A stretch of DNA of 11,395 nucleotides from Candidatus Woesearchaeota archaeon (lineage in GTDB: Archaea; Nanobdellota; Nanobdellia; Woesearchaeales; GW2011-AR9): assembly GCA_016181345.1 (NCBI GenBank), contig JACOZM010000049.1, positions 1-11,395 of the forward strand. The letters are read 5' to 3'. The notes under the pieces were generated by a model. That model was given only the letters and a program-made list of their open reading frames with translations, searched no databases and was not told where the DNA came from. A program made the position numbers and the translations under genes. Positions 1-11,395 of this stretch are shown in pieces (within the stretch, counting starts at the first letter, position 1; each line of letters opens with the position of its first letter).

Positions 1-1
1 G

Positions 2-463
2 GATCAGATAAGATTGGTCAAAGAAACAGGATTCAAAGGGATTTTACACATCGGCCATATCTCCTGTCCGGAAGCTGTCGAGCTTGTAGATCAAGCCAGA
101 GCGGAGATTAAAATTGTTTGCGGGGTAACTCCTCATCATTTATTGTGGGATTATTCTAAATTACAAGAGCCGAATGGAGCATTGTATAAGATGAATCCGC
201 CATTAAGAAGCTGGGAAGACGTAATCAGATTACGAAAATTACTGCAACAAGGAAAGATTGATTGGATTGAAACCGATCATGCTCCGCATGCGATCGGAGA
301 AAAACTTCACGGTTCGAAGAATTGCCCTTCCGGATACCCTTCGCTTTACCTCTATAAAGAGCTTATTGAAAAGAACTTGCCGGCCTGGGGATTAACATCT
401 GAAGAGATCGAAAAATTAACGTTTAGCAATATAGTAAAAACATTTAAGCTAAATCTTATTTAA
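2..463 (+). CDS. pyrC: Dihydroorotase, C-terminal part (5' end outside window)
   Basis: Dihydroorotase interconverts N-carbamoyl-L-aspartate and dihydroorotate in cytosolic pyrimidine synthesis. The frame is open from base 2, so the start and the N-terminal metal-binding HxH lie upstream of the window. Visible family signatures, in order: HIGHIS followed by PEAVELV (the late metal-binding His), VCGVTPHHLLW, KMNPPLRS (substrate contact), and ETDHAPH, which holds the catalytic Asp. The last recognisable block, LTFSNIVKTFKL, matches the usual LTxNPAKIFGL, but the protein stops three residues later. Many dihydroorotases continue with roughly 50-60 residues of a small beta domain, so this is either a short form or C-terminally truncated. 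The usual SGxPGxE stretch reads SGYPSLYLY here. An 11-bp direct repeat (443-453 and 459-469) spans the stop codon. The gene converges on the membrane-protein gene at 523-915. Confidence 0.88.
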   Translation, partial: DQIRLVKETGFKGILHIGHISCPEAVELVDQARAEIKIVCGVTPHHLLWDYSKLQEPNGALYKMNPPLRSWEDVIRLRKLLQQGKIDWIETDHAPHAIGEKLHGSKNCPSGYPSLYLYKELIEKNLPAWGLTSEEIEKLTFSNIVKTFKLNLI

Positions 464-522
464 GCTAAACATTTAATGAACAAATTAAGAAAAGAATTAA
501 AAAAAATTAAAAAATAATCCAA

Positions 523-915
523 TTATTTTCTTTTCTTCTCTCCTGCTTTTGATCTTAAATAAGCCCCAGTAACTGTTGTTACTGCTAACAATTCAACATA
601 GCTTACCCAAAGCCAACCGGAAGAATAAAATGCTCCGAAATCCTTGACAAAGAAAGGTATGGTCACTGCTAAATCTAAGATAGTTCCAACAATTAAAAAG
701 ACGATTCCCAGGTACAACCCTTCTTGCCCATTCGGCTTAACACTCTTGAAGTACATCCATGTGCAGAATACAACAAGAGGGACAAGCAGCACTAAATTTA
801 CAAAGTTTTTTCCAGACTCTGACATTTTTGCTAGCATAACCACTACAACTTCCACAAAAATCAGGAGCCACAATAATATCCCATAGCCTATCCCAGCTTT
901 CCAATTTTTTAACAT
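523..915 (-). CDS. Small four-helix integral membrane protein, unknown function
   Basis: A 130-residue protein with four hydrophobic segments at about residues 8-29, 38-56, 66-90 and 99-119, and a positively charged C-terminus (RSKAGEKKRK) that should lie in the cytoplasm by the positive-inside rule. The third segment (LGIVFLIVGTILDLAVTIPF) carries an Asp inside the membrane. Its G-I-V-x-LD-x-P pattern recalls a widespread family of small four-TM proteins of unknown function in archaea and bacteria. That resemblance is from memory and is not proof. The ATG start is well supported by a strong Shine-Dalgarno (AGAGGTGA on the minus strand, about 923-930) a few bases upstream. A TATA-like TTTAAA around 989-998 would give a leader of about 50 nt. 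No enzymatic motif is visible. Confidence 0.75.
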   Translation of the reverse strand: MLKNWKAGIGYGILLWLLIFVEVVVVMLAKMSESGKNFVNLVLLVPLVVFCTWMYFKSVKPNGQEGLYLGIVFLIVGTILDLAVTIPFFVKDFGAFYSSGWLWVSYVELLAVTTVTGAYLRSKAGEKKRK

Positions 916-1004
916 ATGTTCACCTCTTTTTTAGTCCTAATAATAACAAAAGATAATAATCAGGATTTTTAGAAGTATTCTTTTCATCTTTTTAAATCTA
1001 CTTG

Positions 1005-1037
1005 TTTCTTCTACTTTCTTCTACTACTTTCTTCTAT
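1005..1037. repeat. Short tandem 10-bp pyrimidine-rich repeats
   Basis: The decamer TTTCTTCTAC occurs twice in tandem (1005-1014, 1015-1024), and a near copy TTTCTTCTAT lies at 1028-1037. The array spans the stop codon and last codons of the ATPase gene at 1024-1869. On the minus strand it is a purine-rich GTAGAAGAAA series. It looks like simple slippage expansion. No function can be assigned. Confidence 0.6.
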
Positions 1038-1869
1038 ATCCTTTACTTACCTTCTCGCTCCAAAAGCTCGGTAATGTATTGACTACAAAACCTTGATAGT
1101 TATCTGCATAAATATATGTAATCCCCTCAGTTTCAGCCAGTTCAGTAAAATCTTTTTCTACTTCTTGATACATCTCCCGTATCTTTTTTCGTTCAAAATC
1201 CTTCTGCAATAATGAAGATGGTTTTAAAATTAAATAATCTGCCTGGCGGATAGCATTGATTTCTAGATTGGTAGAATTTTGTGCAATGAAGATAACACTT
1301 AAATCCTTATGCCGTGCTATCAATAAAATGTCTGAAAGGATCTTATTTGCTTTGCTCATCGAGTTTCGGGAAGAGAACTCTATTCCTCCTTCATCGATAA
1401 GCAGAACTGCATTCGTGTCAATTTCTTCTACTGATCGGATAACTTTAATCCAGGCTGGAAGCTCTTCTTCTTTAAAACCAAGAGCGTAAGCGTATTTTTC
1501 GCTCTTTGCAGCAAAATTTTCCAAAATCCTTGTTCCTATCGCTGTTTTTCCAGTTCCTCGCGCTCCTAAGATGATTCCTATGGTACTTTTATTCGTCATC
1601 AATTTTTTCTCAAATGCCGAAAAGCTTCCCGTCTTATTTCTGATTTCTCGAAGAGGAGAATATTTTGCTATGATCTTTGGACGTTGTGATTCAGCCTTCT
1701 TTTTTTTGCTGATCTCTTTTTGCTTGACGTAGGCGCTGGTTATTTTTCTGCCGATCAGCTTGAGGATGAAATATATCCCCTTAAAGGGATAAACAAAGAT
1801 GAGTTTTGAGAGAACTATCAACACCTTACCAAAAAATGATCCGCTTGCCTTTTTAACTCTCTTTTTCAT
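1024..1869 (-). CDS. Membrane-anchored P-loop ATPase, Zot/HerA-FtsK-like
   Basis: A 281-residue NTPase. A very basic N-terminus (MKKRVKK) precedes a hydrophobic stretch at about residues 14-40 that should anchor it to the membrane. A Lys-rich linker (50-65) leads to the ATPase core. Walker A is GARGTGKT (102-109). Walker B is AVLLIDE (154-160), followed by GG. A strand ending in FIAQNS (194-199) sits where this group carries a sensor/polar residue. Together with the ARHKDLSVIFIAQN stretch, this resembles Zot (filamentous phage gp1-like) and packaging or translocation ATPases of the HerA/FtsK group. The family assignment is inference; a P-loop ATPase is certain. I chose the ATG at 1869 over the in-frame TTG at 1872 because a GAGG (1878-1881) is well spaced from it. 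This may be a remnant of a virus or integrative element, but no capsid or integrase gene is nearby. Confidence 0.72.
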   Translation of the reverse strand: MKKRVKKASGSFFGKVLIVLSKLIFVYPFKGIYFILKLIGRKITSAYVKQKEISKKKKAESQRPKIIAKYSPLREIRNKTGSFSAFEKKLMTNKSTIGIILGARGTGKTAIGTRILENFAAKSEKYAYALGFKEEELPAWIKVIRSVEEIDTNAVLLIDEGGIEFSSRNSMSKANKILSDILLIARHKDLSVIFIAQNSTNLEINAIRQADYLILKPSSLLQKDFERKKIREMYQEVEKDFTELAETEGITYIYADNYQGFVVNTLPSFWSEKVSKGYRRK

Positions 1870-1950
1870 CAATCCTGCCTCTTTTTAATAATTAAACTAG
1901 TTGATAATCTGTTGAATTTGAAAACCTGTTAATTTCTAAAATCCACCAAA

Positions 1951-1981
1951 GCTGAAAACAGTGTTATTAACGCTGAAAACA
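1951..1981. repeat. Two direct copies of GCTGAAAACA in the intergenic gap
   Basis: Perfect 10-bp direct repeats at 1951-1960 and 1972-1981 are 21 bp apart, about two helical turns on the same face of the DNA. They lie in the gap between the 809-residue gene (ending at 2063) and the ATPase gene, upstream of the ATPase promoter region. Two same-face sites would suit a regulator dimer, but they could be chance in AT-rich DNA. Nothing else is recognisable in 1873-2062. Confidence 0.35.
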
Positions 1982-2062
1982 TATTAAAGGTAAAACTGTT
2001 TGAATACTATCAGTCTTCTTCTAGAAATATAGTTTTTCTTATAAATGTTATGGCTTGCTTAC

Positions 2063-4492
2063 TTAGGGATTCGACGGAGAAGATAGTAGCAATTCTCTTC
2101 TATTTTCCATATAATTTCCTAAGCCTTCTGTTCCTGCTGTTAATCGTTCTGCTTCCGCAATCCGTAAAACGTCAGTAAGCCGGAAACAAGCTTCAGGATG
2201 ACGTCTAGTGCCAGGGTAATCTATCTGATAAGAATAAATTTTTCCATGACTGGCAAGATCTAACATTCGCTGATGCAAATCCCTATTTAATCTGGCTAAG
2301 GCGCTTCCGTGAACATATTCTTCATGCATTCCTAATCTTCCTGCACGAACGATAAGGTTAGAGATAGAGTTGTCTTGGATTGCAAATTCTCTCATATCCA
2401 ATTCTCCTCCTGTAATCTCCTGATAATCACGCTTAACTTGTTCGATATCAGGAATGTGCTTAATATCATCAACTAATCCATGCTTAAGGATTAAGATTTC
2501 TGTAAGCAATCGTACTGTTCTTGTTTCCCAAGGATTATTCTCTACTTTTTTCCGTAAGTCAACCCGATAAGGTTTTAATTCATCTTCAATAATGGCTACA
2601 GGAATATTCCCACTGAAATACAATGAGCCGATAGCTCTAACGATAGGAATAACATACCCAGGAACAATTTCTCCCTCGTTAAAATCCCCATACATTTTGC
2701 TTAATGCATCGTCAATACTCTCTGGGCGGAATAATATTTGGGTTTTTGCTACGGGTTTATAGGGGTCTCTCTCCTCCAAACCGCGTTTAGAGTCAGATAC
2801 TGTTAATACTTCTTCAGTCTCTTCAACAAGTTCTGTCAATTGAATCGGCCTGCTTCCCAGCAATGCTTCTCTGATAACTTTATGGCCTATTGGCAATCCT
2901 CGTGCAGAAAAATAATCTCTGACTCTGCTGAAAGCCTGTTCTTGAGAAAGTATAAACCTCTCTTTCACTTGATCATACAGAGAGATCAAAAGAGATGGAA
3001 CTTCCATTAAGACATGCCCCCCTCGGCTTTCTTCTTTCCTTGGCTTTAATAGATCAAGAATATCTTTTCGTTCTACTGCTCCGTCAAAAGCATCGTATAG
3101 ATGTTCTCGTCTGCTAGTACCATTTCTTCCTGAACTTTCCAGATATGTTCGAATAATTCTCCATGCCTCTCTTGTACCAATCTCATTAGGCGTATCTCCT
3201 ACTTTTTCTTGGATTCTTAAAGAACTGGCTCCAATCTCTTCTGCCGTCAGCCAATGAACTCCTTTTTTTTGTCTGGCTTGGATAATTTCGGGTTCAACAT
3301 AAACTCCAGGCATTTCCAATCGTTCTCTGAGCTCGTTCATAACAATATTTCCAAAACTATCTTCTCCTTCTTCAGTTGGCGGCAGAGCCATTTCTTCTAA
3401 GAATAGTACAATGTTTTCCAGCCGATATGTTCTCGACATTCCTGGCTCGGGAAGAATCCTGCCCATTCTTCTCAGTTCTTGAAGATGGAAGATTGACATT
3501 TCTTTAGCTTCATCGCCGTAAGATTCTAATAAGCTGCCTTGAATAGCTGCTTCATCAACTAAAAGATGAGGTGTGTAGCGAAACCTGATTGTCTTCTGAC
3601 GATGAGGTTGATCATTCTTGCCGAGTAGAGGAACAACACAATCCCTATATGTCGAGCTTTTTAATGTAGTTACGCCTAAATAAAATTCCCCTTCTCTTCT
3701 CCCAAAGCCTGTTAGGCTGGCTAGAAATTCAGCAGGGAATGTCGCCGTCTGTAATGAAAATAAAATATTCGGACTGTCATCTTTTCCTTCTTGGCCTCGA
3801 AGATTTTGCCTCATTTTTGGACGTTGGACAGCATAGCCATGATTAGGGTTAAAGAAAAATTCTCGCACTTGACCTCGAGGAAATAAATAACTATAAGTTG
3901 CACCATTAAATTCTCTTCTTCCTATAACTCTACCGCTGAGAGCTCCATCTTTTGCTACTCTCATTCTATCATAATAAAATTTTTCATATTGAGGTGGGAG
4001 CCCATTTTGCACATCCCACATCATCATCAAGACTCTTAACTCTCCGGAACTTACTTCTACTGCCCTTCCTAGCCCTTCAACATATTTATGTACATCAAAA
4101 CGGGCTAATCTTTTAGGATTGCTTAGGATATCTTCCAATCCATCTTGTCCGATGTACGTTCCTAATAAGAGTCTTTCCTCACTGCCGTCTACTTCTTCAA
4201 AATCAGTATTCCCAAAATATCTTCTTACTAGATTTCTTGCATGTCCTGCGGTAAATCTCCAGCTTTTTGGTTTGCCCAGACGCCCTTTTTTAACTTCTCT
4301 TTCGAGTAAAGAAGTAGCTTTATTTTCCGGTTTAGGACGTCCTTGTTCCCCCATTGCCCATTTTAGAACTTCAAAGAGATCTCTTCGCGCTATGCGGTAG
4401 TCAGCACCTTCGCGCTCTTCTATCTGCTCTAAAGTTGCTTCTAGTAATTGTTGAGAATCTCTTTCCTCATCATCATAATCTTCTCTTCTCAT
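2063..4492 (-). CDS. 809-residue protein with recurring HTH-like modules, unknown function
   Basis: I do not recognise this protein as a named family. It is charged and soluble, with no signal peptide, membrane segment, Cys cluster or P-loop. The N-terminus is very acidic (residues 1-28). A recurring pattern is visible: a helix, then G-R/K-I/L, a variable loop, then an aromatic-R-L/F strand, then a helix with hydrophobic i, i+3, i+4 spacing. Copies are at about 61-93 (KKGRLG to WRFTAGHARNLVRRYF), 335-368 (RMGRIL to TYRLENIVLFLEEM) and 740-784 (SHGKIY to CFRLTDVLRIAEAERL), with a weaker one at 171-212. This resembles the wing and helix of MerR/excisionase-type winged HTH domains, so a DNA-binding or structural role is possible (inference). 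Its TATA box (4514-4522) is about 26 nt from the ATG, so the mRNA is probably leaderless. The ORF is intact, which argues for a real gene. Confidence 0.8.
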   Translation of the reverse strand: MRREDYDDEERDSQQLLEATLEQIEEREGADYRIARRDLFEVLKWAMGEQGRPKPENKATSLLEREVKKGRLGKPKSWRFTAGHARNLVRRYFGNTDFEEVDGSEERLLLGTYIGQDGLEDILSNPKRLARFDVHKYVEGLGRAVEVSSGELRVLMMMWDVQNGLPPQYEKFYYDRMRVAKDGALSGRVIGRREFNGATYSYLFPRGQVREFFFNPNHGYAVQRPKMRQNLRGQEGKDDSPNILFSLQTATFPAEFLASLTGFGRREGEFYLGVTTLKSSTYRDCVVPLLGKNDQPHRQKTIRFRYTPHLLVDEAAIQGSLLESYGDEAKEMSIFHLQELRRMGRILPEPGMSRTYRLENIVLFLEEMALPPTEEGEDSFGNIVMNELRERLEMPGVYVEPEIIQARQKKGVHWLTAEEIGASSLRIQEKVGDTPNEIGTREAWRIIRTYLESSGRNGTSRREHLYDAFDGAVERKDILDLLKPRKEESRGGHVLMEVPSLLISLYDQVKERFILSQEQAFSRVRDYFSARGLPIGHKVIREALLGSRPIQLTELVEETEEVLTVSDSKRGLEERDPYKPVAKTQILFRPESIDDALSKMYGDFNEGEIVPGYVIPIVRAIGSLYFSGNIPVAIIEDELKPYRVDLRKKVENNPWETRTVRLLTEILILKHGLVDDIKHIPDIEQVKRDYQEITGGELDMREFAIQDNSISNLIVRAGRLGMHEEYVHGSALARLNRDLHQRMLDLASHGKIYSYQIDYPGTRRHPEACFRLTDVLRIAEAERLTAGTEGLGNYMENRRELLLSSPSNP

Positions 4493-4513
4493 CGTTGGAC
4501 CTATTAATTCCTT

Positions 4514-4522
4514 ATTTTTAAA
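4514..4522 (-). promoter_or_regulatory. TATA box for the 809-residue gene
   Basis: On the minus strand the sequence reads TTTAAAAAT, centred about 26 nt before the ATG at 4492, which places transcription start at the start codon itself. No Shine-Dalgarno is needed or seen. Short GAAACAA motifs recur at 4580, 4614, 4630 and 4648 in the same gap (4493-4706); the rest of the gap holds nothing I recognise. Confidence 0.5.
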
Positions 4523-4676
4523 CTTTTAGATATATAAGAATAGATAACCCAAAGGAAGTTCCAAGTTCTGTCAATAATAGAAACAACAACACTTTAAGAA
4601 ATAATACATCCCAAGAAACAATAATAACAGAAACAATGTCAATCAAAGAAACAATACCTAGAAGTGCAAAGCAATA

Positions 4677-4684
4677 TTTTTAAA
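4677..4684 (+). promoter_or_regulatory. TATA box for trm5
   Basis: TTTTTAAA is centred about 26 nt upstream of the ATG at 4707, so the predicted transcript starts at or next to the start codon (leaderless). No Shine-Dalgarno precedes this ATG. Confidence 0.55.
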
Positions 4685-4706
4685 CTCATGACTATTCCAT
4701 CCTGAC

Positions 4707-5726
4707 ATGCTCGCAGCTAAAACAACGTTAATTCATGCAGAAGAAGTAAAAAATATTTTGATTAAAAAAAATTTTCTTGATCATCGTTATCTGCCGATAA
4801 AGGAATTTGGAGTTATCTTTTTCCCTCTTCTCAAAAAGGTAAAAATTCCTAAGGCAGAAATTATTGATGTAGCTATGGACTTTCCAAAAAAGCCTCTTCC
4901 TCTGACTATTGAAGGCCTATTGGAAAACAAGATCAGCAAAGAAGAATTAAAAAAGATTCCTAAAAGTCAGGAAATTATCGGAACAATTCTTATCTTAGAA
5001 ATACCTGAAGAGCTGGAGCATCACGAGAAGAAAATTGCTGAAGCTTATCTCTTATTGAATAAGCATGTGGAAACTGTCGTTAAGAAAGCAAAGATGCATG
5101 AAGGAACTTATCGGACAAGAAAAGTAAAGGTATTAGCAGGAAAAAAGAAGAAAGAAACACTTCATCTCGAAAACGGGATCAAATTAAAACTTCATCTGGA
5201 AAAAACGTATTTTTCTGCCCGAAGCGCCAACGAAAGAATGAGAATAGCTCAACTTGTTAAGCCAGGAGAAGAAATTTTAGTGATGTTTTCCGGCGCTGCC
5301 CCTTATCCTCTCGTCTTAGCCAGGCACACTCCAGCAAAAATAATCTATGGAATAGAATTAAACCCTTCTGCTCACCAATATGCTTTGCAGAATGTCGAAA
5401 TAAATAACCTTCAAAATAAAGTTATTATTTATCAAGGCGATGTCAGAAAAATAGTTCCAAGTATGCATCAGACTTTTGACAGGATTATCATGCCTCTGCC
5501 GAAGACGAGCGAGGAATTTCTTGATGTAGCTCTTCCAAAAGCTAAGAAGAAGGGAATGACCCATCTTTATGCTTTCTTTAATGAAAAGAATCTTGCAGAT
5601 GAAAAGAAAAAAATAAAAAATATTTGTCATCAGCTTAACTATAATGTTAAAATCATTAGAACAGTAAAATGCGGCCAATTTTCTCCTGGAACATTTAGAT
5701 GGTGCTTTGATTTGATGGTTATGTAA
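4707..5726 (+). CDS. trm5: tRNA (guanine-37-N1)-methyltransferase Trm5
   Basis: Trm5 uses S-adenosylmethionine to methylate N1 of G37 next to the anticodon, which prevents +1 frameshifting; the same step starts wyosine synthesis in archaea. The 339 residues follow the family layout. An N-terminal D1-like region (about 1-75) precedes the D2 RNA-contacting part with IIGTILILEIPEEL and the GTYRTRKVKVLAG block (matching GxfRxRxlxxLaG). Then come ENGIKLKLHLEKTYFSARSANERMRIA, matching the diagnostic YFSPRLAxER, and the Rossmann methyltransferase core. SAM motif I reads VMFSGAAPYPLV where most members have DMFAGVGPF, so the Asp is replaced by Val. Next are IELNPSAHQYALQN, GDVRK, and IIMPLP in the catalytic-loop position (usually MNLP). 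The C-terminus PGTFRWCFDLMV is typical. TYW2-type paralogues share this fold, but overall agreement favours Trm5. Confidence 0.85.
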   Translation: MLAAKTTLIHAEEVKNILIKKNFLDHRYLPIKEFGVIFFPLLKKVKIPKAEIIDVAMDFPKKPLPLTIEGLLENKISKEELKKIPKSQEIIGTILILEIPEELEHHEKKIAEAYLLLNKHVETVVKKAKMHEGTYRTRKVKVLAGKKKKETLHLENGIKLKLHLEKTYFSARSANERMRIAQLVKPGEEILVMFSGAAPYPLVLARHTPAKIIYGIELNPSAHQYALQNVEINNLQNKVIIYQGDVRKIVPSMHQTFDRIIMPLPKTSEEFLDVALPKAKKKGMTHLYAFFNEKNLADEKKKIKNICHQLNYNVKIIRTVKCGQFSPGTFRWCFDLMVM

Positions 5727-5779
5727 GGTCTATGTGCGCTGAGAAGTTACATCCGTTAATCATTTCCTTTCGGATCATC

Positions 5780-5791
5780 TGGTGTTCACCA
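5780..5791. repeat. Short palindrome between convergent genes
   Basis: TGGTG-TT-CACCA lies between the convergent trm5 (ending at 5726) and endonuclease-like (ending at 5813) genes. As RNA it could form a four-pair hairpin with a GTTC loop. It is not followed by a T tract, so a terminator role is not clear. The rest of this 86-bp gap shows nothing recognisable. Confidence 0.3.
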
Positions 5792-5812
5792 CTGTCATTG
5801 CGCATTCCATCC

Positions 5813-6847
5813 TTACTTATTTCTCTTTATCAAATCTTCTAAAACTTCTTGTTTCTCTGATGCGTATAAAAAACTAAATTGATTATAAAACTTGTGTAGA
5901 TTTTCTTTGCCTTTGAGGTAAAACCTCCCATAAAATTGTCTCCCTTTCTGCTTTCTTAATTGAATGTGAGATGTTGAAATACCAAAATGATTAAGCATTG
6001 TTCTGATTTGGTTTAGAAATTCTATTAAGTTTGGGACATATTCTTTACACTTAGAAAGAACAAACTGGATTCTCCACCTATTATTTGAAGGGGCAGAGCC
6101 TTCATTTCCGATTACCGTTGACAAGAAGATTTTCTTTATTTCATCTGGTCCATGATAAATCCAATTTTGGATTAAAAATGGTTGAAATACTTTATTTCCT
6201 TTTTTAGCGCCTAATTCTTGGAGCAATTTGGACAGTGCTGTGCTCTTACATACTTCAACTACATAAGATTCTCCTGTTGTTGCTTTCTTAATTTTAAACT
6301 CTTCCTTTTCAAATTCGGTCTTAAAGTTTTTTACAAATGATATCGCATCTTTTTTTCTTCGGAAAAAGAAATTTACATTGCCCCTTTTGATATGACCGTC
6401 ACACATTGAAAATCCGGTTAATAAAGCTAAAAATTGCTGAATATCAAGACTCTCAAAATTTATTAAAGGATATTTTTGGATAAATTTAAACTCCATGTTT
6501 ATTCTTAGTTCATGGTCCATCCTTAATAGTTCAAATTCACTCTTGTCAATTTCTGTTATTAACTCACTTTTATTCTCAAAATAGTAAGGCAGCAAATAGT
6601 TTTGATAAATCTCTTCTAGTTTTTCTGTATTTGAATAAGAATAATAGAACCCTTTAGTTAATTGAATCGGCGTCCTGGATATAAAATGACTCTTATGAAG
6701 CCGAGTAAGAATCATGGTAATAATGCTTTTTTCAGTGTTTGTTCCCAATTTCTTCAATTCAGATAATATGCCTGAAGAATTAAAGACTTCGTCTGGATTT
6801 TCCTTAAAAATAGTATGGACTATTTGATGTACTGATAAATTGTTCAT
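5813..6847 (-). CDS. Free-standing LAGLIDADG-type homing endonuclease-like protein with N-terminal winged helix
   Basis: A 344-residue protein. Residues 1-75 look like a winged-helix domain (HQIVHTIF, SSGILSELKKLG, then a wing-like ISRTPIQLTKGFYYS). Two LAGLIDADG-type helices follow: ALLTGFSMCDGHI (141-153), with acidic D150, and FLSTVIGNEGSA (241-252), with acidic E249. Each is followed by a basic beta-rich segment (NVNFFFRRKKDAISFVKNF; RWRIQFVLSKCKEY), as expected for the DNA-contacting sheets of a single-chain enzyme. Both acidic positions are present, so nuclease activity is possible. The gene is not inside an intron or intein that I can see. A WhiA-like regulatory use of the same fold is the alternative. 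The ATG at 6847 has a GAGG (6858-6861) 10 nt upstream and a TATA box at 6886-6894. Confidence 0.75.
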   Translation of the reverse strand: MNNLSVHQIVHTIFKENPDEVFNSSGILSELKKLGTNTEKSIITMILTRLHKSHFISRTPIQLTKGFYYSYSNTEKLEEIYQNYLLPYYFENKSELITEIDKSEFELLRMDHELRINMEFKFIQKYPLINFESLDIQQFLALLTGFSMCDGHIKRGNVNFFFRRKKDAISFVKNFKTEFEKEEFKIKKATTGESYVVEVCKSTALSKLLQELGAKKGNKVFQPFLIQNWIYHGPDEIKKIFLSTVIGNEGSAPSNNRWRIQFVLSKCKEYVPNLIEFLNQIRTMLNHFGISTSHIQLRKQKGRQFYGRFYLKGKENLHKFYNQFSFLYASEKQEVLEDLIKRNK

Positions 6848-6885
6848 CTATGTGTTGCCTCTTTTTAGGATTAGAAAAAGGACCG

Positions 6886-6894
6886 ATTTATATA
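6886..6894 (-). promoter_or_regulatory. TATA box for the LAGLIDADG gene
   Basis: TATATAAAT on the minus strand predicts a start near 6864, leaving a 17-nt leader that contains GAGG. The 142-bp gap 6848-6989 is a divergent promoter region shared with the hydrolase gene. Confidence 0.5.
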
Positions 6895-6941
6895 CTATTT
6901 GTGGACTTGTCTAGTGGGTATGTGGTGTATTATTAAAAAGG

Positions 6942-6951
6942 TTTTTAAATA
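6942..6951 (+). promoter_or_regulatory. TATA box for the hydrolase gene
   Basis: TTTTTAAATA predicts transcription start near 6972 and an 18-nt leader before the ATG at 6990. The only purine stretch is AAGGA at 6983-6987, very close to the ATG, so its role as a ribosome site is doubtful. Confidence 0.45.
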
Positions 6952-6989
6952 TAAACTAAATCATATTGAATCTATAAAAACTAAGGATC

Positions 6990-7553
6990 ATGGCAACAAT
7001 TTTCATCTTTCACGGAATAGAAGGAAGTGATAAAGAGAATTGGTTTCCTTGGCTGAAGAAGGAGCTGGGGCTTTTAGGACATCAAGTTTTCGTCCCTAAT
7101 TTTCCTAACTCTGACTCCCCTAATGTACAAGAATGGATGGATTTCTTTGCCCAGAACTACGCAGATAAATTAACCAAAGACTCTGTGTTTATCGGGCATA
7201 GCTTAAGTGTTTCTTTTATCTTAAGCCTTTTAGAAAAATACTCAGTTAAGGCAGCTTTTTTAGTCGCCGGCTTTTGCAGTCCTGTAAATAACAAATACCA
7301 AGAAAGAATGGTTTCATTTACTGATAAAGAATTTGACTGGAAAACGGTAAAAAAACATTGTCCTAAATTTGTAATTTTTAACTCTGACAATGATCCTTAT
7401 ATTACTTTGGAAAAAAGCCAAGAATTAGCCGACAATCTACAAGTCAAAGCTATTTTAATCAAGAATGGCGGGCATCTCAACAAAAAATCCGGGTTTGCAG
7501 AATTTCCGTTGCTGCTGGAGGAGATCAAGAAATGGTTAGGTAACTATTCGTAA
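6990..7553 (+). CDS. RBBP9/YdeN-type alpha/beta serine hydrolase
   Basis: A 187-residue cytosolic protein, the normal length for this minimal alpha/beta-hydrolase family, whose members are serine hydrolases of poorly defined substrate. The N-terminal strand IFIFHGIEGS gives the oxyanion-hole HG. ENWFPWLKKEL and FPNSDSPNVQEWM match the family's W-pW-L and P...Dxp...W blocks. The nucleophile elbow is GHSLSV, with Ser71. The acid is in NSDNDPYI (Asp135, the usual SxxDP position), and the base is His162 in NGGHLN. The triad is therefore complete. It lies downstream of a divergent promoter and ends about 80 bp before the DGR promoter. It is probably a separate transcript, with no obvious functional link to the DGR. 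Confidence 0.85.
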   Translation: MATIFIFHGIEGSDKENWFPWLKKELGLLGHQVFVPNFPNSDSPNVQEWMDFFAQNYADKLTKDSVFIGHSLSVSFILSLLEKYSVKAAFLVAGFCSPVNNKYQERMVSFTDKEFDWKTVKKHCPKFVIFNSDNDPYITLEKSQELADNLQVKAILIKNGGHLNKKSGFAEFPLLLEEIKKWLGNYS

Positions 7554-7606
7554 TCATTCTCCTGAGTTGAAAAAACAAGTAAATCAGAAAATTATGCAAC
7601 CACTTA

Positions 7607-7620
7607 CTACTAGGTAGTAG
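7607..7620. promoter_or_regulatory. Palindrome upstream of the DGR promoter (possible operator)
   Basis: CTACTA-GG-TAGTAG is a perfect 6+6 inverted repeat ending 14 bp before the TATA box at 7635-7642. That position is suitable for an activator or repressor near the BRE. It could also end the upstream hydrolase transcript as a hairpin, although the 2-base spacer is too tight for a full stem. Confidence 0.4.
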
Positions 7621-7634
7621 AATTATCCGCAAGA

Positions 7635-7642
7635 TTTATAAA
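7635..7642 (+). promoter_or_regulatory. TATA box for the DGR target operon
   Basis: TTTATAAA is centred about 28 nt upstream of the ATG at 7667, so the predicted start is at or within a few bases of that codon. This supports the ATG at 7667 over the upstream in-frame TTG at 7646, which would lie between TATA and the start site. Confidence 0.6.
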
Positions 7643-7666
7643 TTATTGGTTATTTTTATCCCTAAA

Positions 7667-8068
7667 ATGTCAGATTTAACCATTTTGCTTAATCAAGGTC
7701 GTGAACAAGTTCCAGTTACAAAAATGGTTGATCCCTTTGATGTAAAGATGGGATCAATTCCTAATATAGTTCCTTTATTGAGAGACGAAGGAAGAACGTT
7801 TGCCTCTGGAAGCGTTGTTTTAGCGGAACGATTAGCTGCTCTTCGCTCTGGTGATCAACAACAAATTGAAGCGTGGGGCAATACTTATTATGATTTAGCT
7901 GATGCCTGCCTTACGTTTGAGGATGTATTGAAAGTACAGCCAGATTCTCCGTTATTAAAGGACATTCGCGGAATAGTTGAAACTGCCGACGGGCTTTACA
8001 TAGCCGTTTCTGCGGCTGCTGTTTCAGCAGCTGCTAAACATGAAATGCGCTATTTTCCAGTGAGATAG
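7667..8068 (+). CDS. Unknown protein, probable N-terminal part of the DGR target protein
   Basis: A 133-residue product (MSDLTILLNQGREQ onward) of unknown family. It is mostly helical with an Ala-rich segment near the end (AVSAAAVSAAAKHEMRYFPVR). There is no signal peptide and no Cys. Its TATA box gives a leaderless start at 7667. It stops at TAG 8066-8068, while the next frame (+1) is open from 8064 and runs on into the VR-bearing ORF. That ORF has only TTG codons near its beginning, so the two may be one protein of about 280 residues joined by a +1 shift or split by a mutation. The alternative is a separate accessory gene. It lacks the basic four-helix look of Avd, so I do not call it that. 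Confidence 0.6.
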   Translation: MSDLTILLNQGREQVPVTKMVDPFDVKMGSIPNIVPLLRDEGRTFASGSVVLAERLAALRSGDQQQIEAWGNTYYDLADACLTFEDVLKVQPDSPLLKDIRGIVETADGLYIAVSAAAVSAAAKHEMRYFPVR

Positions 8069-8099
8069 TAAAGTAAAAAGGCAAGTAACTGACGTTGTC

Positions 8100-8510
8100 T
8101 TGTTGAAATATGCTCACCCTACTCATGTTGAATTAAGCGGCGATCAATTTAACGCCGTAGATGCTCAACCATTAAAGAGAGGCGATTTTGTTTATCAGCG
8201 AGACATGCAAGCAGAAGAAATAGTTAAAGATGGAGACGTAGTTCATCTGGTTTATAAAGCATTGTTGCCGGCAGAATTAGTTGTTCCGTTAGTAGCTGAA
8301 ACATTTGAATTTAACAAAAGAACTTACGGTTATGATTCAAATATGGGCTTGTATCTTGCTGGTGAGCCACAAAGACAAGCTGAATTGCGGGCTTTCTGTG
8401 CTGGCTGGCTTAACAGCAGGTCTGGGCTTGATGGCCACTATTTTGGCAGTAGCGACAACCGCCTCGTTGGGGTAGTAGAGGGTAGCGCCGCAGGCGCCGC
8501 GAAAAAATAG
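8100..8510 (+). CDS. DGR target (variable) protein, VR-bearing C-terminal part
   Basis: This carries the variable repeat at residues 98-125 of the 136-residue reading from TTG 8100. The variable segment reads AFCAGWLNSRSGLDGHYFG and then SSDNRLVGVV. The invariant framework (FCA, L, RS, L, G, G, NRLVG) surrounds positions where the template has AAC/AAT codons. This resembles the NNNxGFRL end of C-type-lectin-fold DGR targets (family knowledge). The rest (HPTHVELSGDQFNAVDAQPLKRGDFVYQ) looks like a small beta-rich domain I do not recognise. After the VR, a tail of ten residues (EGSAAGAAKK) ends the protein. The start is doubtful: no ATG or GTG occurs near the beginning of the frame, only TTG, and no well-placed ribosome site. 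The frame is open back to 8064, so it is likely continuous with 7667-8068. Confidence 0.8.
   Translation: MLKYAHPTHVELSGDQFNAVDAQPLKRGDFVYQRDMQAEEIVKDGDVVHLVYKALLPAELVVPLVAETFEFNKRTYGYDSNMGLYLAGEPQRQAELRAFCAGWLNSRSGLDGHYFGSSDNRLVGVVEGSAAGAAKK
8387..8474 (+). repeat. DGR variable repeat (VR)
   Basis: This 88-nt repeat aligns to the TR at 8706-8796. With one 3-nt gap opposite a TR AAC codon, I count 14 substitutions, all opposite TR adenines (10 to G, 3 to T, 1 to C), and none at G, C or T. The first 15 nt and the block CGACAACCGCCTCGTTGG near the end (apart from its one A-to-G change) give the flanking homology. The last two A-to-G differences (8471, 8472) may instead mark the IMH/IMH* difference at the 3' border. 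Confidence 0.93.
8485..8497 (+). other. GC-rich hairpin just downstream of the VR
   Basis: GCGCC-GCA-GGCGC can form a 5-bp stem with a 3-base loop, beginning 10 nt after the VR end. It is absent after the TR. A DNA hairpin or cruciform at this place is required for efficient retrohoming in the Bordetella phage DGR (established). It also encodes the Gly-Ser-Ala-Ala-Gly-Ala tail of the target and is unusually GC-rich for this window. Confidence 0.65.
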
Positions 8511-8516
8511 AAAAGA

Positions 8517-8524
8517 TTATATAA
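8517..8524 (+). promoter_or_regulatory. TATA box for the template RNA
   Basis: TTATATAA is centred at about 8521, just past the target stop codon. A start 25-27 nt downstream falls at 8546-8548, the first base of the predicted outer stem of the TR RNA. The coincidence of promoter spacing and RNA fold supports an independent template-RNA promoter that may also drive the RT gene. Confidence 0.6.
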
Positions 8525-8546
8525 TTCTAGTATTTATTTTTATTTC

Positions 8547-8813
8547 TCGGCTATAGTTCCAAAACTATTTGGGATAATGGCTGGGCTACAGCTTTTTTGT
8601 TAAGGCTCAAAATTATGTTGGGTCATAAAATACAGCTGTGACACATGTTCTCTGGGGCATAGGGTTGAAACAGCAGTGAATCGTCAGCAAAAAAGCTATA
8701 CTTGGGCGGGCTTTCTGTGCTAACAGGCTTAACAACAGGTCTAGGCTTAATGGCAACAACAATATTGGCAATAACAACAACCGCCTCGTTGGAATAGCCC
8801 AGCTTATAGCCGA
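8547..8813 (+). ncRNA. DGR template RNA with predicted multi-stem fold
   Basis: This accounts for most of the 312-bp gap between target and RT genes. P1 pairs TCGGCTATA (8547-8555) with 8805-8813. A hairpin follows at 8556-8563/8568-8575 with an ACTA loop. P2 pairs GCTGGGCTA (8580-8588) with 8795-8803, plus a G-U pair. P3 pairs AGCTTTTTTG (8590-8599) with 8688-8697. Inside P3, 8604-8610 can pair with 8618-8624 (two wobbles). On the 3' side P2 and P1 are directly contiguous. The TR (8706-8796) is left as a loop closed by P2. I infer that the fold presents the TR to the RT and defines where copying stops; flanking RNA is known to be needed for cDNA priming in the Bordetella system. The fold was derived by eye, with no energy calculation. 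Confidence 0.72.
8706..8796 (+). repeat. DGR template repeat (TR)
   Basis: A 91-nt invariant template. In the target frame it has 11 AAC/AAT codons, including runs of three and four Asn. This codon choice lets A-to-N mutation reach many residues without creating stop codons. It has no coding role of its own. Its 3' end overlaps P2 of the template RNA by two bases, and the RT gene starts 26 nt further on. Confidence 0.93.
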
Positions 8814-8822
8814 TGTAATCTT

Positions 8823-9941
8823 ATGGATAAGACGAATTGCAGGGATTTATGGGCAGAGCTGTGCAGTTATGATAATTTAGTTCTAGCCTACAAAAAAGCC
8901 AGAAAGCATAAGACTACAAAAGAATATGTTTTAGAATTTGAGAAAGAGCTTGAGAATAATCTTCTTACCCTTCGTTCAGAATTATTACTTCATTGTTACC
9001 AGCCAAGGCCTTTAGTTCATTTTATCATTCGAGATCCAAAGACCAGAAAAATAAGCAAATCTACATTTAGAGATAGGATAGTGCACCATGCTTTATGCAG
9101 TGTAATCGAGCCAATATTTGAGAAAAGTTTTATTTATGATTCTTATGCGAATAGGATCGGCAAGGGAACATTAAAGGCAATCAACAGATTTGATTTTTTC
9201 AAAAGAAAATCTAGTAAAAACAACACTGTCAATTCTTATATTCTAAAAGCAGACATCAAAAAATATTTTGATAATGTAGATCTCTCAGTTTTATTATCTA
9301 TTCTTAGGGAAAAGATAGATGACCGAAGAATTGTCTGGCTAATCAAGAAAATATTAAATAATTATGGCCATATGATAAAAGGTATGCCTCTTGGCAATCT
9401 CACCAGTCAGTTTTTTGCTAATGTTTATCTTAATAAGTTAGATGGATTTGTAAAACACAAGCTAAAAGTAAAATATTATCTGCGCTATGTTGATGATTTT
9501 ATAATTCTTGATAGTGATAAGGAGAAATTAGTAAACTATAAATTACTTATTGATGAATTTTTAAAAAGTAAGTTAAGTATTCAATTGCATGAAGATAAAT
9601 CAAAAATATACTGCTTAGGGGATAGTATGGTTTTTCTCGGTTTTCGTGTTTTCTATTATCACAAGCTTCTAAAAAAATCGAATTTAAACAGATTCAAGAA
9701 GAATTTTCTATTTTTAAAAAAGCGATATATCCGCAAAGAAATTGATTACGAGTTTATCTATAACTTTATAGAAGGGTGGGTTGCATATGCGAAGAATGCA
9801 AGCACCTATAAGTTTAGGCAGAAATTTTTAAAAGATTTTGAAGGAAGATTTAATGGTGAGATTTCAGCAAAGGAAATAAATGCCTATGGTAAGATCATGC
9901 GAAAAATAATCTTTTTACAAACTCAAGTTATCATCTCCTAA
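8823..9941 (+). CDS. DGR reverse transcriptase
   Basis: A 372-residue group-II-intron-like reverse transcriptase that would copy the TR RNA with errors at adenines. Motifs in order: RDRIVHHALCSVIEPIFEKSFIYDSYANRIGKG (finger region, about 83-114); KADIKKYFDNVD with catalytic Asp144; GMPLGNLTSQFFANVYLNKLD (187-207), whose LGNLTSQ is the DGR-class signature in motif 4; and RYVDDFIIL (221-229) with catalytic D224 and D225. VFLGFRV (270-276) and the late GWVAYAKNAST (318-327), close to the GWLxHAxT seen in DGR RTs, follow. There is no maturase or endonuclease domain, and the length is normal for DGR RTs (about 300-400). The ATG lies 9 nt after the template-RNA stem P1, with no clear Shine-Dalgarno, so the fold could influence translation. 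Confidence 0.93.
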   Translation: MDKTNCRDLWAELCSYDNLVLAYKKARKHKTTKEYVLEFEKELENNLLTLRSELLLHCYQPRPLVHFIIRDPKTRKISKSTFRDRIVHHALCSVIEPIFEKSFIYDSYANRIGKGTLKAINRFDFFKRKSSKNNTVNSYILKADIKKYFDNVDLSVLLSILREKIDDRRIVWLIKKILNNYGHMIKGMPLGNLTSQFFANVYLNKLDGFVKHKLKVKYYLRYVDDFIILDSDKEKLVNYKLLIDEFLKSKLSIQLHEDKSKIYCLGDSMVFLGFRVFYYHKLLKKSNLNRFKKNFLFLKKRYIRKEIDYEFIYNFIEGWVAYAKNASTYKFRQKFLKDFEGRFNGEISAKEINAYGKIMRKIIFLQTQVIIS

Positions 9942-9968
9942 ATAATAAAAAAAGAACTTTAGGTATCC

Positions 9969-11177
9969 TTACCCCAAAATCATGCTTTCGTCTTCTTCTT
10001 CTTCGATTCTGACTTTCTCAATAGCAGCTAAGAAGTCTTCTTGAGTAACGTACTCGCGGTTATTCCGGATGGCAAAATATCCTGCTTCAGTGCAGACTGC
10101 TTTTATCTCTGCTCCGGAAAAATTCTCCATCTCCAAGACTAGTTCATTTAATTTTATATTTTTAAGGCTCATACCTTTAGTATGCACTTTTAAGATTTCT
10201 AATCTTCCATCTTCATTCTGAAGATTAACTTCAATCAGCCGATCTAGCCTTCCCGGGCGGATGATTGCTTGATCCAAAATATCGAGTCTATTAGTTGCAG
10301 CTACAACTTTAACGTCTCCTAAGCTATCAAACCCGTCAAGCTCTGCTAACAATTGCATGAACGTCCGATTAACTTCCCTCTCGCCAGACGTTCCAGTCTC
10401 CATTCTCATCGCTGCTAAAGCATCAATTTCATCAATAAAAACAATAGCTGGAGCATTTTTCCGTGCATAATCAAAAATATCCTTAACGAGCTTAGCTCCT
10501 TCACCTATAAATTTCTGTACGAGCTCTGAGCCGACAACTTCAATAAACATTGCCTTAGTCGAATTTGCTACGGCTTTGGCTAAAAGTGTCTTTCCTGTTC
10601 CAGGAGGTCCAAATAAGAGAACTCCTTTTGGCGGTTGGATCCCTATTTTCTTAAAGAGCTGAGGTTTTTTCAAAGGCAATTCAATAACTTCTCGAATCTC
10701 GCGCATTTCATCCTTTAATCCGCCGATGTCTTTCCAATTTTCATGAGGCTTGTCGATGATAACAAACTTTTCAACGTCAAAATTCTGGGTAAGATTAATT
10801 TTTTCCACAACATTCAATGATTTTTGTTCTACTAAAACAGAATCTCCCGACTTCAATCCTTTAACATCATGAGAAATGTTGCAGTAGAATTTATTTCCAT
10901 TGGGAAGCTTGATGATGGCATTCTTGCCCATAACATTGCAGACTTCAGAGACAAGCAAAGCTGGTTTTTTAAGATTATTCAGTTCGTTGCTGGCTTTATC
11001 AAATAATTCTCGGAGCATTGCCCCTTCTTCCTGTAATCGTGCAATAGTTCCTTGGATAAGCTGATTTTCTTCTTCTAGCCGGACAATATTCTCAGCCATC
11101 TTTTTGGTCTGCTCATCATGATCCTTCAAGTTATACTCTTCAGAATATACTGTTTTTTTATCTGTTTCCCCGTTCAT
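9969..11177 (-). CDS. pan: Proteasome-activating nucleotidase (PAN)
   Basis: PAN is the hexameric AAA+ ATPase that unfolds proteins and feeds them to the archaeal 20S proteasome. The 402 residues show an N-terminal coiled coil (about 20-70), an OB domain (about 71-127), and the AAA module. The module begins at WKDIGGL, with Walker A GPPGTGKT (190-197), pore loop KFIGEG (222-227), Walker B IVFIDE (245-250), sensor VAATNR (292-297) and Arg fingers in IRPGRLDR (306-313). The helical C-domain contains GAEIKAVCTEAGYFAIR. The C-terminus ends EDESMILG. The hydrophobic-Tyr-X motif used by PAN to open the 20S gate is not present; the third-last to last residues are ILG. The TATA box (11199-11207) lies about 26 nt from the ATG, so the mRNA is probably leaderless. 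It converges on the RT gene, with 27 bp between them. Confidence 0.92.
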   Translation of the reverse strand: MNGETDKKTVYSEEYNLKDHDEQTKKMAENIVRLEEENQLIQGTIARLQEEGAMLRELFDKASNELNNLKKPALLVSEVCNVMGKNAIIKLPNGNKFYCNISHDVKGLKSGDSVLVEQKSLNVVEKINLTQNFDVEKFVIIDKPHENWKDIGGLKDEMREIREVIELPLKKPQLFKKIGIQPPKGVLLFGPPGTGKTLLAKAVANSTKAMFIEVVGSELVQKFIGEGAKLVKDIFDYARKNAPAIVFIDEIDALAAMRMETGTSGEREVNRTFMQLLAELDGFDSLGDVKVVAATNRLDILDQAIIRPGRLDRLIEVNLQNEDGRLEILKVHTKGMSLKNIKLNELVLEMENFSGAEIKAVCTEAGYFAIRNNREYVTQEDFLAAIEKVRIEEEEDESMILG

Positions 11178-11198
11178 AGTGTCTATAAAAGAGTTTTT

Positions 11199-11207
11199 AT
11201 TTTTAAA
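11199..11207 (-). promoter_or_regulatory. TATA box for pan
   Basis: TTTAAAAAT on the minus strand is centred about 26 nt before the ATG at 11177, predicting a leaderless mRNA. The MITE-like element begins 34 bp further upstream, leaving this promoter intact. Confidence 0.5.
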
Positions 11208-11240
11208 CGTTGCTATAATATGTAGTATTTAGTTCTGTTG

Positions 11241-11385
11241 AAAATAGTGGCAAGGTCAAGGTGGAAAATTCATTAAGAGCATCGTCAGATAAGACTAGTT
11301 GCAAGGCTTTCCACTTAAAAATACTACTTATATTTAGATTTTTTGCAATAAAGCCTTGCTGAATTTTCCGACCTGCCACTATTTT
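11241..11385. mobile_element. 145-bp MITE-like element with TIRs and 5-bp target duplication
   Basis: The ends are a perfect 12-bp inverted repeat, AAAATAGTGGCA (11241-11252) and its complement (11374-11385). The match continues inward through GGTC and GGAAAATTCA after a 1-nt and a 5-nt interruption, giving 26 paired positions. An inner 10-bp inverted repeat, GCAAGGCTTT (11301-11310), pairs with 11350-11359. TGTTG lies immediately outside both ends (11236-11240 and 11386-11390), which is the direct repeat left by transposition. There is no coding capacity, so it would depend on a transposase elsewhere. I cannot assign the parental IS family; a 5-bp duplication is compatible with several. As RNA it would be one long hairpin. 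Confidence 0.78.
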
Positions 11386-11395
11386 TGTTGTAGAA

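Follow-up and report, generated by a model that had tools for sequence, protein, structure and literature searches.

Where does a diversity-generating retroelement (DGR) carry the structured part of its template RNA when only 25 nucleotides (nt) separate the end of the template repeat (TR) from the start of the reverse transcriptase (RT) gene? The question is raised by positions 7635-9941 of an 11,395-nt stretch of DNA from a small-genome Candidatus Woesearchaeota archaeon (GenBank assembly GCA_016181345.1, contig JACOZM010000049.1, positions 1 to 11,395 of the forward strand; hereafter the window), in which a target gene bearing a variable repeat (VR), a TR and an RT gene follow one another on the plus strand. 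The structured RNA appears to lie on the 5' side of the TR, where it corresponds to the Rfam family RT-16 (RF03019). With a probability of roughly 0.8, we regard the locus as a cellular DGR of the group defined by the RTs of DPANN archaea, in which two helices (P1 and P2) would close the TR into a loop, a 5' scaffold would be bound by the RT and a target of the AvpA type would be rewritten.

The VR/TR pair

The VR (8387-8475) and the TR (8706-8797), the positions of which had been given correctly to within a base in the preliminary description, differ by 14 substitutions and one TR codon missing in the VR. All 14 substitutions are located at TR adenines, as previously claimed. As there are 27 adenines in the 89 ungapped TR columns, the chance of 14/14 is 2.6e-9, or 2.9e-8 once two terminal A-to-G sites are excluded. 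The detector of adenine-directed repeats found nothing in 30 Markov-resampled copies of positions 6896-11395 and nothing in the real sequence from 1 to 6895. The TR contains 11 AAY codons, and none of its codons is convertible to a stop codon by a change of adenine. When the DNA of the same genome was searched for additional VRs, only the TR, its VR and one 14-nt match with an E-value of 0.97 were retrieved.

The 3' end of the VR (8456-8475, terminating with GGGGTAG) resembles the initiation of mutagenic homing (IMH) sequence, and that of the TR (8778-8797, terminating with GGAATAG) its counterpart IMH*, both delimited by the VR/TR alignment and the comparison with archaeal rows. A GC-rich hairpin, GCGCC-GCA-GGCGC (8485-8497), lies just 3' of the VR within the coding frame. 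The locus thus displays both an IMH slightly different from IMH* (GGGGTA versus GGAATA) and an inverted repeat after the VR, as expected of a DGR. A perfect stem of at least 5 within 70 nt of the VR was present in 29 of 39 rows, against 7.7 expected from shuffled sequences. The AA at 8793-8794 in the TR is GG in the VR of the window alignment, and the same change was seen in 19 of the 24 archaeal rows scorable by a simple offset alignment (39 rows tried; L040, scored elsewhere, was dropped, L041 entered twice with its two VRs, and the window was unscorable in that way; L numbers denote our loci). These two of the 14 changes are probably not the products of mutagenesis but an archaeal difference between IMH and IMH* at the likely start of cDNA synthesis. 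In the set of TR/VR loci, L034, L035, L038 and L043 were left unused as second contig copies, and L112, a tandem repeat, was not counted.

An RNA folded around the TR

RT-16 was the sole Rfam family matched at gathering score in the whole window. The match covers the full model at 8546-8704 on the plus strand (72.2 bits against a gathering score of 50; E-value of 3.4e-11), whereas RT-11 reached 31 bits, far under its threshold, and Phage_DGR gave no match up to an E-value of 1 in 8300-9000. RT-16 RNA is named in a passage of PMC11701678, and neither the name nor the description of the Rfam family carries a link to DGRs. The model ends where the TR begins.

The single strand from 8510 to 8822 folds 3.6 standard deviations better than its shuffled versions. 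In the predicted fold, the 5' strand of P1 (8547-8555) pairs with 8805-8813 and that of P2 (8579-8588) with 8795-8804, both across the TR. The two 3' strands, which lie outside the Rfam model, form a single 19-nt run (8795-8813) that would close the TR loop, and P2 starts at the base directly following the AA at 8793-8794. The 5' strand of P2 is followed by the predicted 5' scaffold (8590-8697), which overlaps the Rfam model and in which P3 (8590-8601/8686-8697) encloses P4 (8604-8610/8618-8624) and P5 (8631-8639/8670-8678). The fold energy calculated without pairs across the TR was not used, because the constraint also removed local pairs.

Across 145 genomes belonging to the family or the order of this archaeon, the genome containing the window among them, there were 47 RT-16 matches with E-values of 0.001 or lower, 40 of them above the Rfam cut-off. 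A DGR RT was located 80-365 nt downstream of 35 of the 47. Among the remaining 12, nine were accompanied by a TR/VR pair (one of these, L157, has an RT about 1.3 kb further on), while L150, L159 and L160 had neither a TR/VR pair nor an RT beyond fragments. Of the 35 other archaeal loci with a TR/VR pair, 31 gave an RT-16 match that reached the gathering score, as compared to none of 23 bacterial RT loci, 22 of which have such a pair. We assign RT-16 to the template RNA of archaeal DGRs, of which it forms the 5' half. The preliminary description had presented arms pairing across the TR as a feature of this cassette's own; the pairing itself is found in the predicted fold and supported by covariation in relatives, but it is common to the archaeal DGR group.

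Covariation was assessed in 52 RT-16 loci, none of them near-identical by shared 8-letter words; these and 11 held-out loci comprise all 47 matches of the 145 genomes plus 16 other loci. Pairing of the 5' arm was stronger with the 3' flank of the same locus than with those of other loci (means of -37.6 versus -30.0 kcal/mol; 0 of 20,000 permutations), the own flank ranking first in 10 of the 52 loci, while no such preference was seen for the TR body of the same locus (11,422 of 20,000 permutations). The P1 arms behaved likewise (-14.8 versus -9.6; 0/20,000). With P2 anchored without gaps, 8.16 of the 10 positions pair within loci and 6.42 between loci (51 loci after L150, in which no TR was found, was dropped; 0/20,000). 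In eight loci (L012, L020, L024, L040, L049, L051, L052 and L053), the anchors were set by hand after the patterns had failed; the corresponding values for the other 43 loci were 8.07 and 6.47 (0/20,000). At positions 4-10, which are untouched by the anchor patterns, they were 5.30 and 3.93 (43 loci; 0/20,000). At position 2, 32 of the 43 loci have U-A and 11 have C-G, and positions 7-9 pair in 33, 33 and 31 loci as compared to 19.9, 20.5 and 18.1 after shuffling. The A-U pair at position 1 was set by the anchor patterns and is no evidence. The signal was weaker in the 11 held-out loci (57 of 20,000 permutations).

The interrupted target gene

The preliminary description spoke of a target open reading frame (ORF) with a C-terminal VR. 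The VR-bearing frame holds, but the single ORF does not, as the target is divided into two frames. The N-terminal half of this AvpA-like protein (ORF1, 7667-8068, plus strand, stop codon at 8066-8068) is 96% identical to the N-terminal part of the intact homologue P0121. The C-terminal half (8064-8510, plus strand), +1 relative to ORF1, is 84% identical to the C-terminal part of P0121; its frame is open from 8064, and the first start codon listed is TTG at 8100. The frame breaks at 8061/8062, where 32 nt are absent relative to a paralogue at the end of another contig of the same genome (C67). Upstream of the break, 99 nt (7963-8061, plus strand) are identical to the end of C67, and the break coincides with the 3' edge of this stretch. 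This copy may be unable to produce a whole target, unless the assembly is in error at the break, so that calling the DGR complete, as had been done, is doubtful. Programmed frameshifting was dropped by inspection only, because the homologues are continuous and the break lies at the edge of the shared stretch.

It is conceivable, and to us a serious though minority view, that the DGR is decayed, in which case an out-of-frame loss would have made the target a pseudogene and the cassette would no longer serve a purpose. The 32 absent nucleotides speak for this, as do the 13 homologous proteins found (including the C67 paralogue), every one of which reads through the position of the break. On the other side stand the intact RT gene, the coincidence of the break with the edge of a stretch common to the end of another contig, and the VR, which bears no non-adenine substitution relative to the TR and thus implies that its last rewriting was recent or that it is still being rewritten.

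The target had also been described as an unrecognised protein. This is correct as regards sequence, since no family was matched in searches of family libraries, but not as regards structure: the predicted structure of a close homologue has the C-type-lectin fold already known from AvpA (crystal structure 5ioo; PMC5006420), with a sequence identity of 9%. A profile of the 13 homologues compared with PDB sequences did not list 5ioo at an E-value of 10. PMC5006420 itself counts as relatives of AvpA proteins that were detected through fold prediction and share as little as 17% identity. The VR of AvpA is followed by 46 residues, as compared to approximately 12 in the window target. By analogy with DGRs and the AvpA family, we infer that the cassette, if active, would vary a binding surface.

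The paralogue mentioned above (L118) is a second target gene, found by protein search and carrying the IMH GTTGGGGTAG and a GC hairpin. No TR/VR pair, RT-16 or RT was found on the 4.2-kb contig C67. Ten of the 25 mismatches between its VR and the window TR are at non-adenines, implying that another TR, not that of the window, made the C67 VR.

The position of the structured RNA

The TR end was separated from the RT start by 5-71 nt (median of 28) in all of the 33 archaeal loci scored, and by 166-451 nt (median of 402) in 38 of 43 bacterial loci; these distances run from the end of the detected ungapped repeat and some are too long (64 nt for the window, truly 25), and loci with the RT on the opposite strand (archaeal L041, L042 and L046; bacterial L096 and L109) are omitted. 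The TR follows the RT in the other five bacterial loci, although L076 has, in addition, a pair whose TR precedes the RT by about 400 nt. In phage BPP-1, the TR lies 144 nt from brt with the Rfam family Phage_DGR (RF03022; 104.7 bits) between them, and avd is present. RT-14 occupies the interval between TR and RT in phage BalMu-1, the structured RNA of which is thus also 3' of the TR, and likewise in L067. The archaeal viruses ANMV-1 and vir525 have the TR 113 and 103 nt before the RT, with no Rfam match up to an E-value of 0.5. The short archaeal spacers, set against the 3' RNAs elsewhere, imply that the structured RNA of the cellular DPANN group is on the other side of the TR. In L041, L042 and L046, the TR/VR pair and RT-16 are on the strand opposite the RT, and the RNA module and the RT are thus not co-transcribed.

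With BPP-1 the window shares the adenine-directed TR/VR pair, IMH and IMH*, a hairpin after the VR and an RT of the same broad group. It could be argued that this is an ordinary DPANN DGR of the BPP-1 kind, in which the scaffold follows the TR and lies within the first part of the RT gene, and RT-16 serves only as a leader or to regulate expression of the RT. The BPP-1 spacer located 3' of the TR is covered by Phage_DGR and, according to PMC12875486, recruits RT-Avd and supplies the internal adenine from which synthesis is primed. We consider this alternative improbable. Whereas the structured RNA of BPP-1 is 3' of the TR, 25 nt remain on that side here, and the pairing arms flank the TR on both sides and covary. 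Moreover, eight cassettes of relatives (L149, L151, L152, L153, L154, L155, L156 and L158) keep RT-16 with a TR/VR pair but no full RT gene within the 2.9-3.9 kb of sequence analysed after the TR, and a role in regulating RT expression would not explain RT-16 in these.

In the eight RT-less cassettes, 113 of 115 TR/VR mismatches are at adenines (the detector itself demands 85%), and L152 retains a truncated RT start. A DGR RT was found elsewhere in five of the seven genomes concerned, which suggests that these cassettes are served in trans. The accessory protein Avd is present in BPP-1 but not in all DGRs. The genome containing the window, which is 68% complete, had no match to PF05635, the one Pfam model for Avd that was tried, and there is no ORF of at least 60 amino acids between the target and the RT. 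It is about an even bet that these features amount to a second DGR architecture of DPANN archaea, in which a 5' scaffold recruits the RT, a TR loop closed by P1 and P2 lets cDNA start at the P2 edge without a 3' spacer or Avd, the module of RNA and target is separable, RT-less cassettes being rewritten in trans by an RT encoded elsewhere in the genome, and RT-16 is the conserved half of the RNA.

Phylogenetic position of the RT

The RT gene (8823-9941, plus strand) is an intact ORF of 372 amino acids. As described earlier, it is of the DGR class: the motifs MPLGNLTSQ and YVDD agree with the (I/L)GxxxSQ and YxDD typical of DGR RTs, and the protein matches RVT_1 (E-value of 7e-20) and the reverse transcriptase family phrog_1423 (366 bits). 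Its best match among solved structures is 8ub7 (158 bits), listed only as 'Reverse transcriptase', which we take to be the RT of phage BPP-1; the best group II intron RT reached 84.5 bits. The best PADLOC model was a general RT (174 bits), and most of the further models listed were other RTs with lower scores.

Placement in a tree of DGR RTs had been proposed as a check on this class. In the maximum-likelihood phylogeny of 98 RTs, which included BPP-1, ANMV-1 and bacterial DGR RTs, 39 archaeal rows including the window were on one side of a branch (support of 96/82), and two group II intron RTs stood apart from the rest. L001-L004, L034-L038 and L043 were skipped (L036 and L037 are not confirmed copies) and rows with fewer than 220 aligned residues were dropped. 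All of the 39 archaeal RTs possess PLGNxTSQ and YVDD. Thus, in this tree the window RT is grouped with DGR RTs of DPANN archaea, supporting the previous assignment to a DGR of a DPANN archaeon. The named archaeal matches were of Woesearchaeota, Nanoarchaeota, Pacearchaeota, Micrarchaeota and Aenigmatarchaeota, and an RT of this kind was found with an E-value of 1e-30 or better in 35 of the 145 genomes. A search of IMG/VR with the RT yielded 13 contigs with identities of 43% or lower, and no members of the target family were found on IMG/VR contigs. The proposal that the VR and TR arose by ordinary duplication and divergence beside a group II intron or defence RT has in its favour that the best NCBIfam model is a group II intron RT (151 bits, under the cut-off of 300), but it has next to no probability and is refuted as far as sequence can refute it by the 14/14 changes at adenines, the RT tree, the LGNLTSQ motif and the recurrence of this TR/VR signature at 35 further archaeal loci.

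The GC content is 0.30 in the RT gene, 0.42-0.44 in the target halves and 0.36 in the window, which agrees with PMC4372165, where RT and target are described as having had separate histories.

Proposed mechanism and its weight

Returning to the cellular DGR with an enclosed template, we propose that the locus is transcribed and that a transcript of approximately 8546-8815 would fold so that the 5' flank of the TR and the sequence immediately after the TR are held together by P1 and P2, with the A-rich TR looped out next to the 5' scaffold (P3-P5, the RT-16 motif). The RT would most likely bind this scaffold instead of a 3' spacer with Avd. Synthesis of cDNA may start at the P2 edge of the TR, at the conserved AA of IMH*, and the RT would copy the TR with errors at adenines, as suggested by the TR/VR pattern and the DGR family as a whole. 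Finally, the cDNA would replace the VR of the C-type-lectin target of the AvpA type, guided by the IMH and the hairpin following it.

Several observations weigh against this scheme. Four of the 35 archaeal loci (L009, L013, L015 and L039) lack an RT-16 match at gathering score. The folds of 32 of the 52 loci had been inspected beforehand, the other 20 not having been looked at, and the pairing hypothesis was thus partly formed on these loci. In three of the 11 held-out loci (L134, L142 and L172, including one with unread bases), pairing with the own flank is poorer than the average for the others. A local stem involving the 5' strands of P1 and P2, the first stem of the Rfam RT-16 model, also passes the permutation test (0/20,000), implying that the RNA may have two states, of which the closed form is one; this test does not decide between the closed and local forms. 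On the side of the target, the frame is broken in the assembly, and the AlphaFold model is of a homologue, being the best of five with a mean predicted local distance difference test (pLDDT) score of 70.7 (the others about 60 or less) and a pLDDT below 50 across much of the VR.

In itself, the cassette is a further example of the DGRs of DPANN archaea, which are well known (PMC4372165, PMC8144416, PMC10907252 and PMC8421398), and its target is of a known kind. As described in PMC4372165, the DGRs of the uncultivated DUSEL4 Nanoarchaeota and other DPANN archaea share with the window an RT of the archaeal clade, an orphan VR target, a TR, a hairpin after the VR and solo target fragments elsewhere in the genome; solo targets without an RT are already reported there, whereas the conserved RNA scaffold and the pairing flanking the TR found here are not described in the parts consulted. 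What looks new is the recognition of RT-16 as belonging to the template RNA of archaeal DGRs, as its 5' half, together with the enclosure of the TR. No earlier link between RT-16 and DGRs was found in the literature searched, although priority is uncertain and Weinberg 2017 and Paul 2017 may say more. The finding points to a function for the Rfam family, and the succession of RT-16 and an A-rich repeat is a sequence signature by which RT-less DGR cassettes can be found. With the scaffold on the other side of an enclosed TR, the archaeal group offers a natural test of what a DGR RT really needs, as well as a compact, possibly Avd-free system for targeted mutagenesis.

Other features of the window

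Two genes on the minus strand attracted attention: 2063-4492 encodes an 809-amino-acid protein without a Pfam or NCBIfam match, and 5813-6847 a stand-alone LAGLIDADG-like protein that shows weak similarity to an RtcB model in its intein portion. The end of the window (11225-11395) is an interspersed repeat of about 170 nt without an Rfam match. It has 20 matches in its own genome, including itself (the others 70-93% identical, some partial), and short inverted arms (15 nt, 87% complementary), and is perhaps an element resembling miniature inverted-repeat transposable elements.

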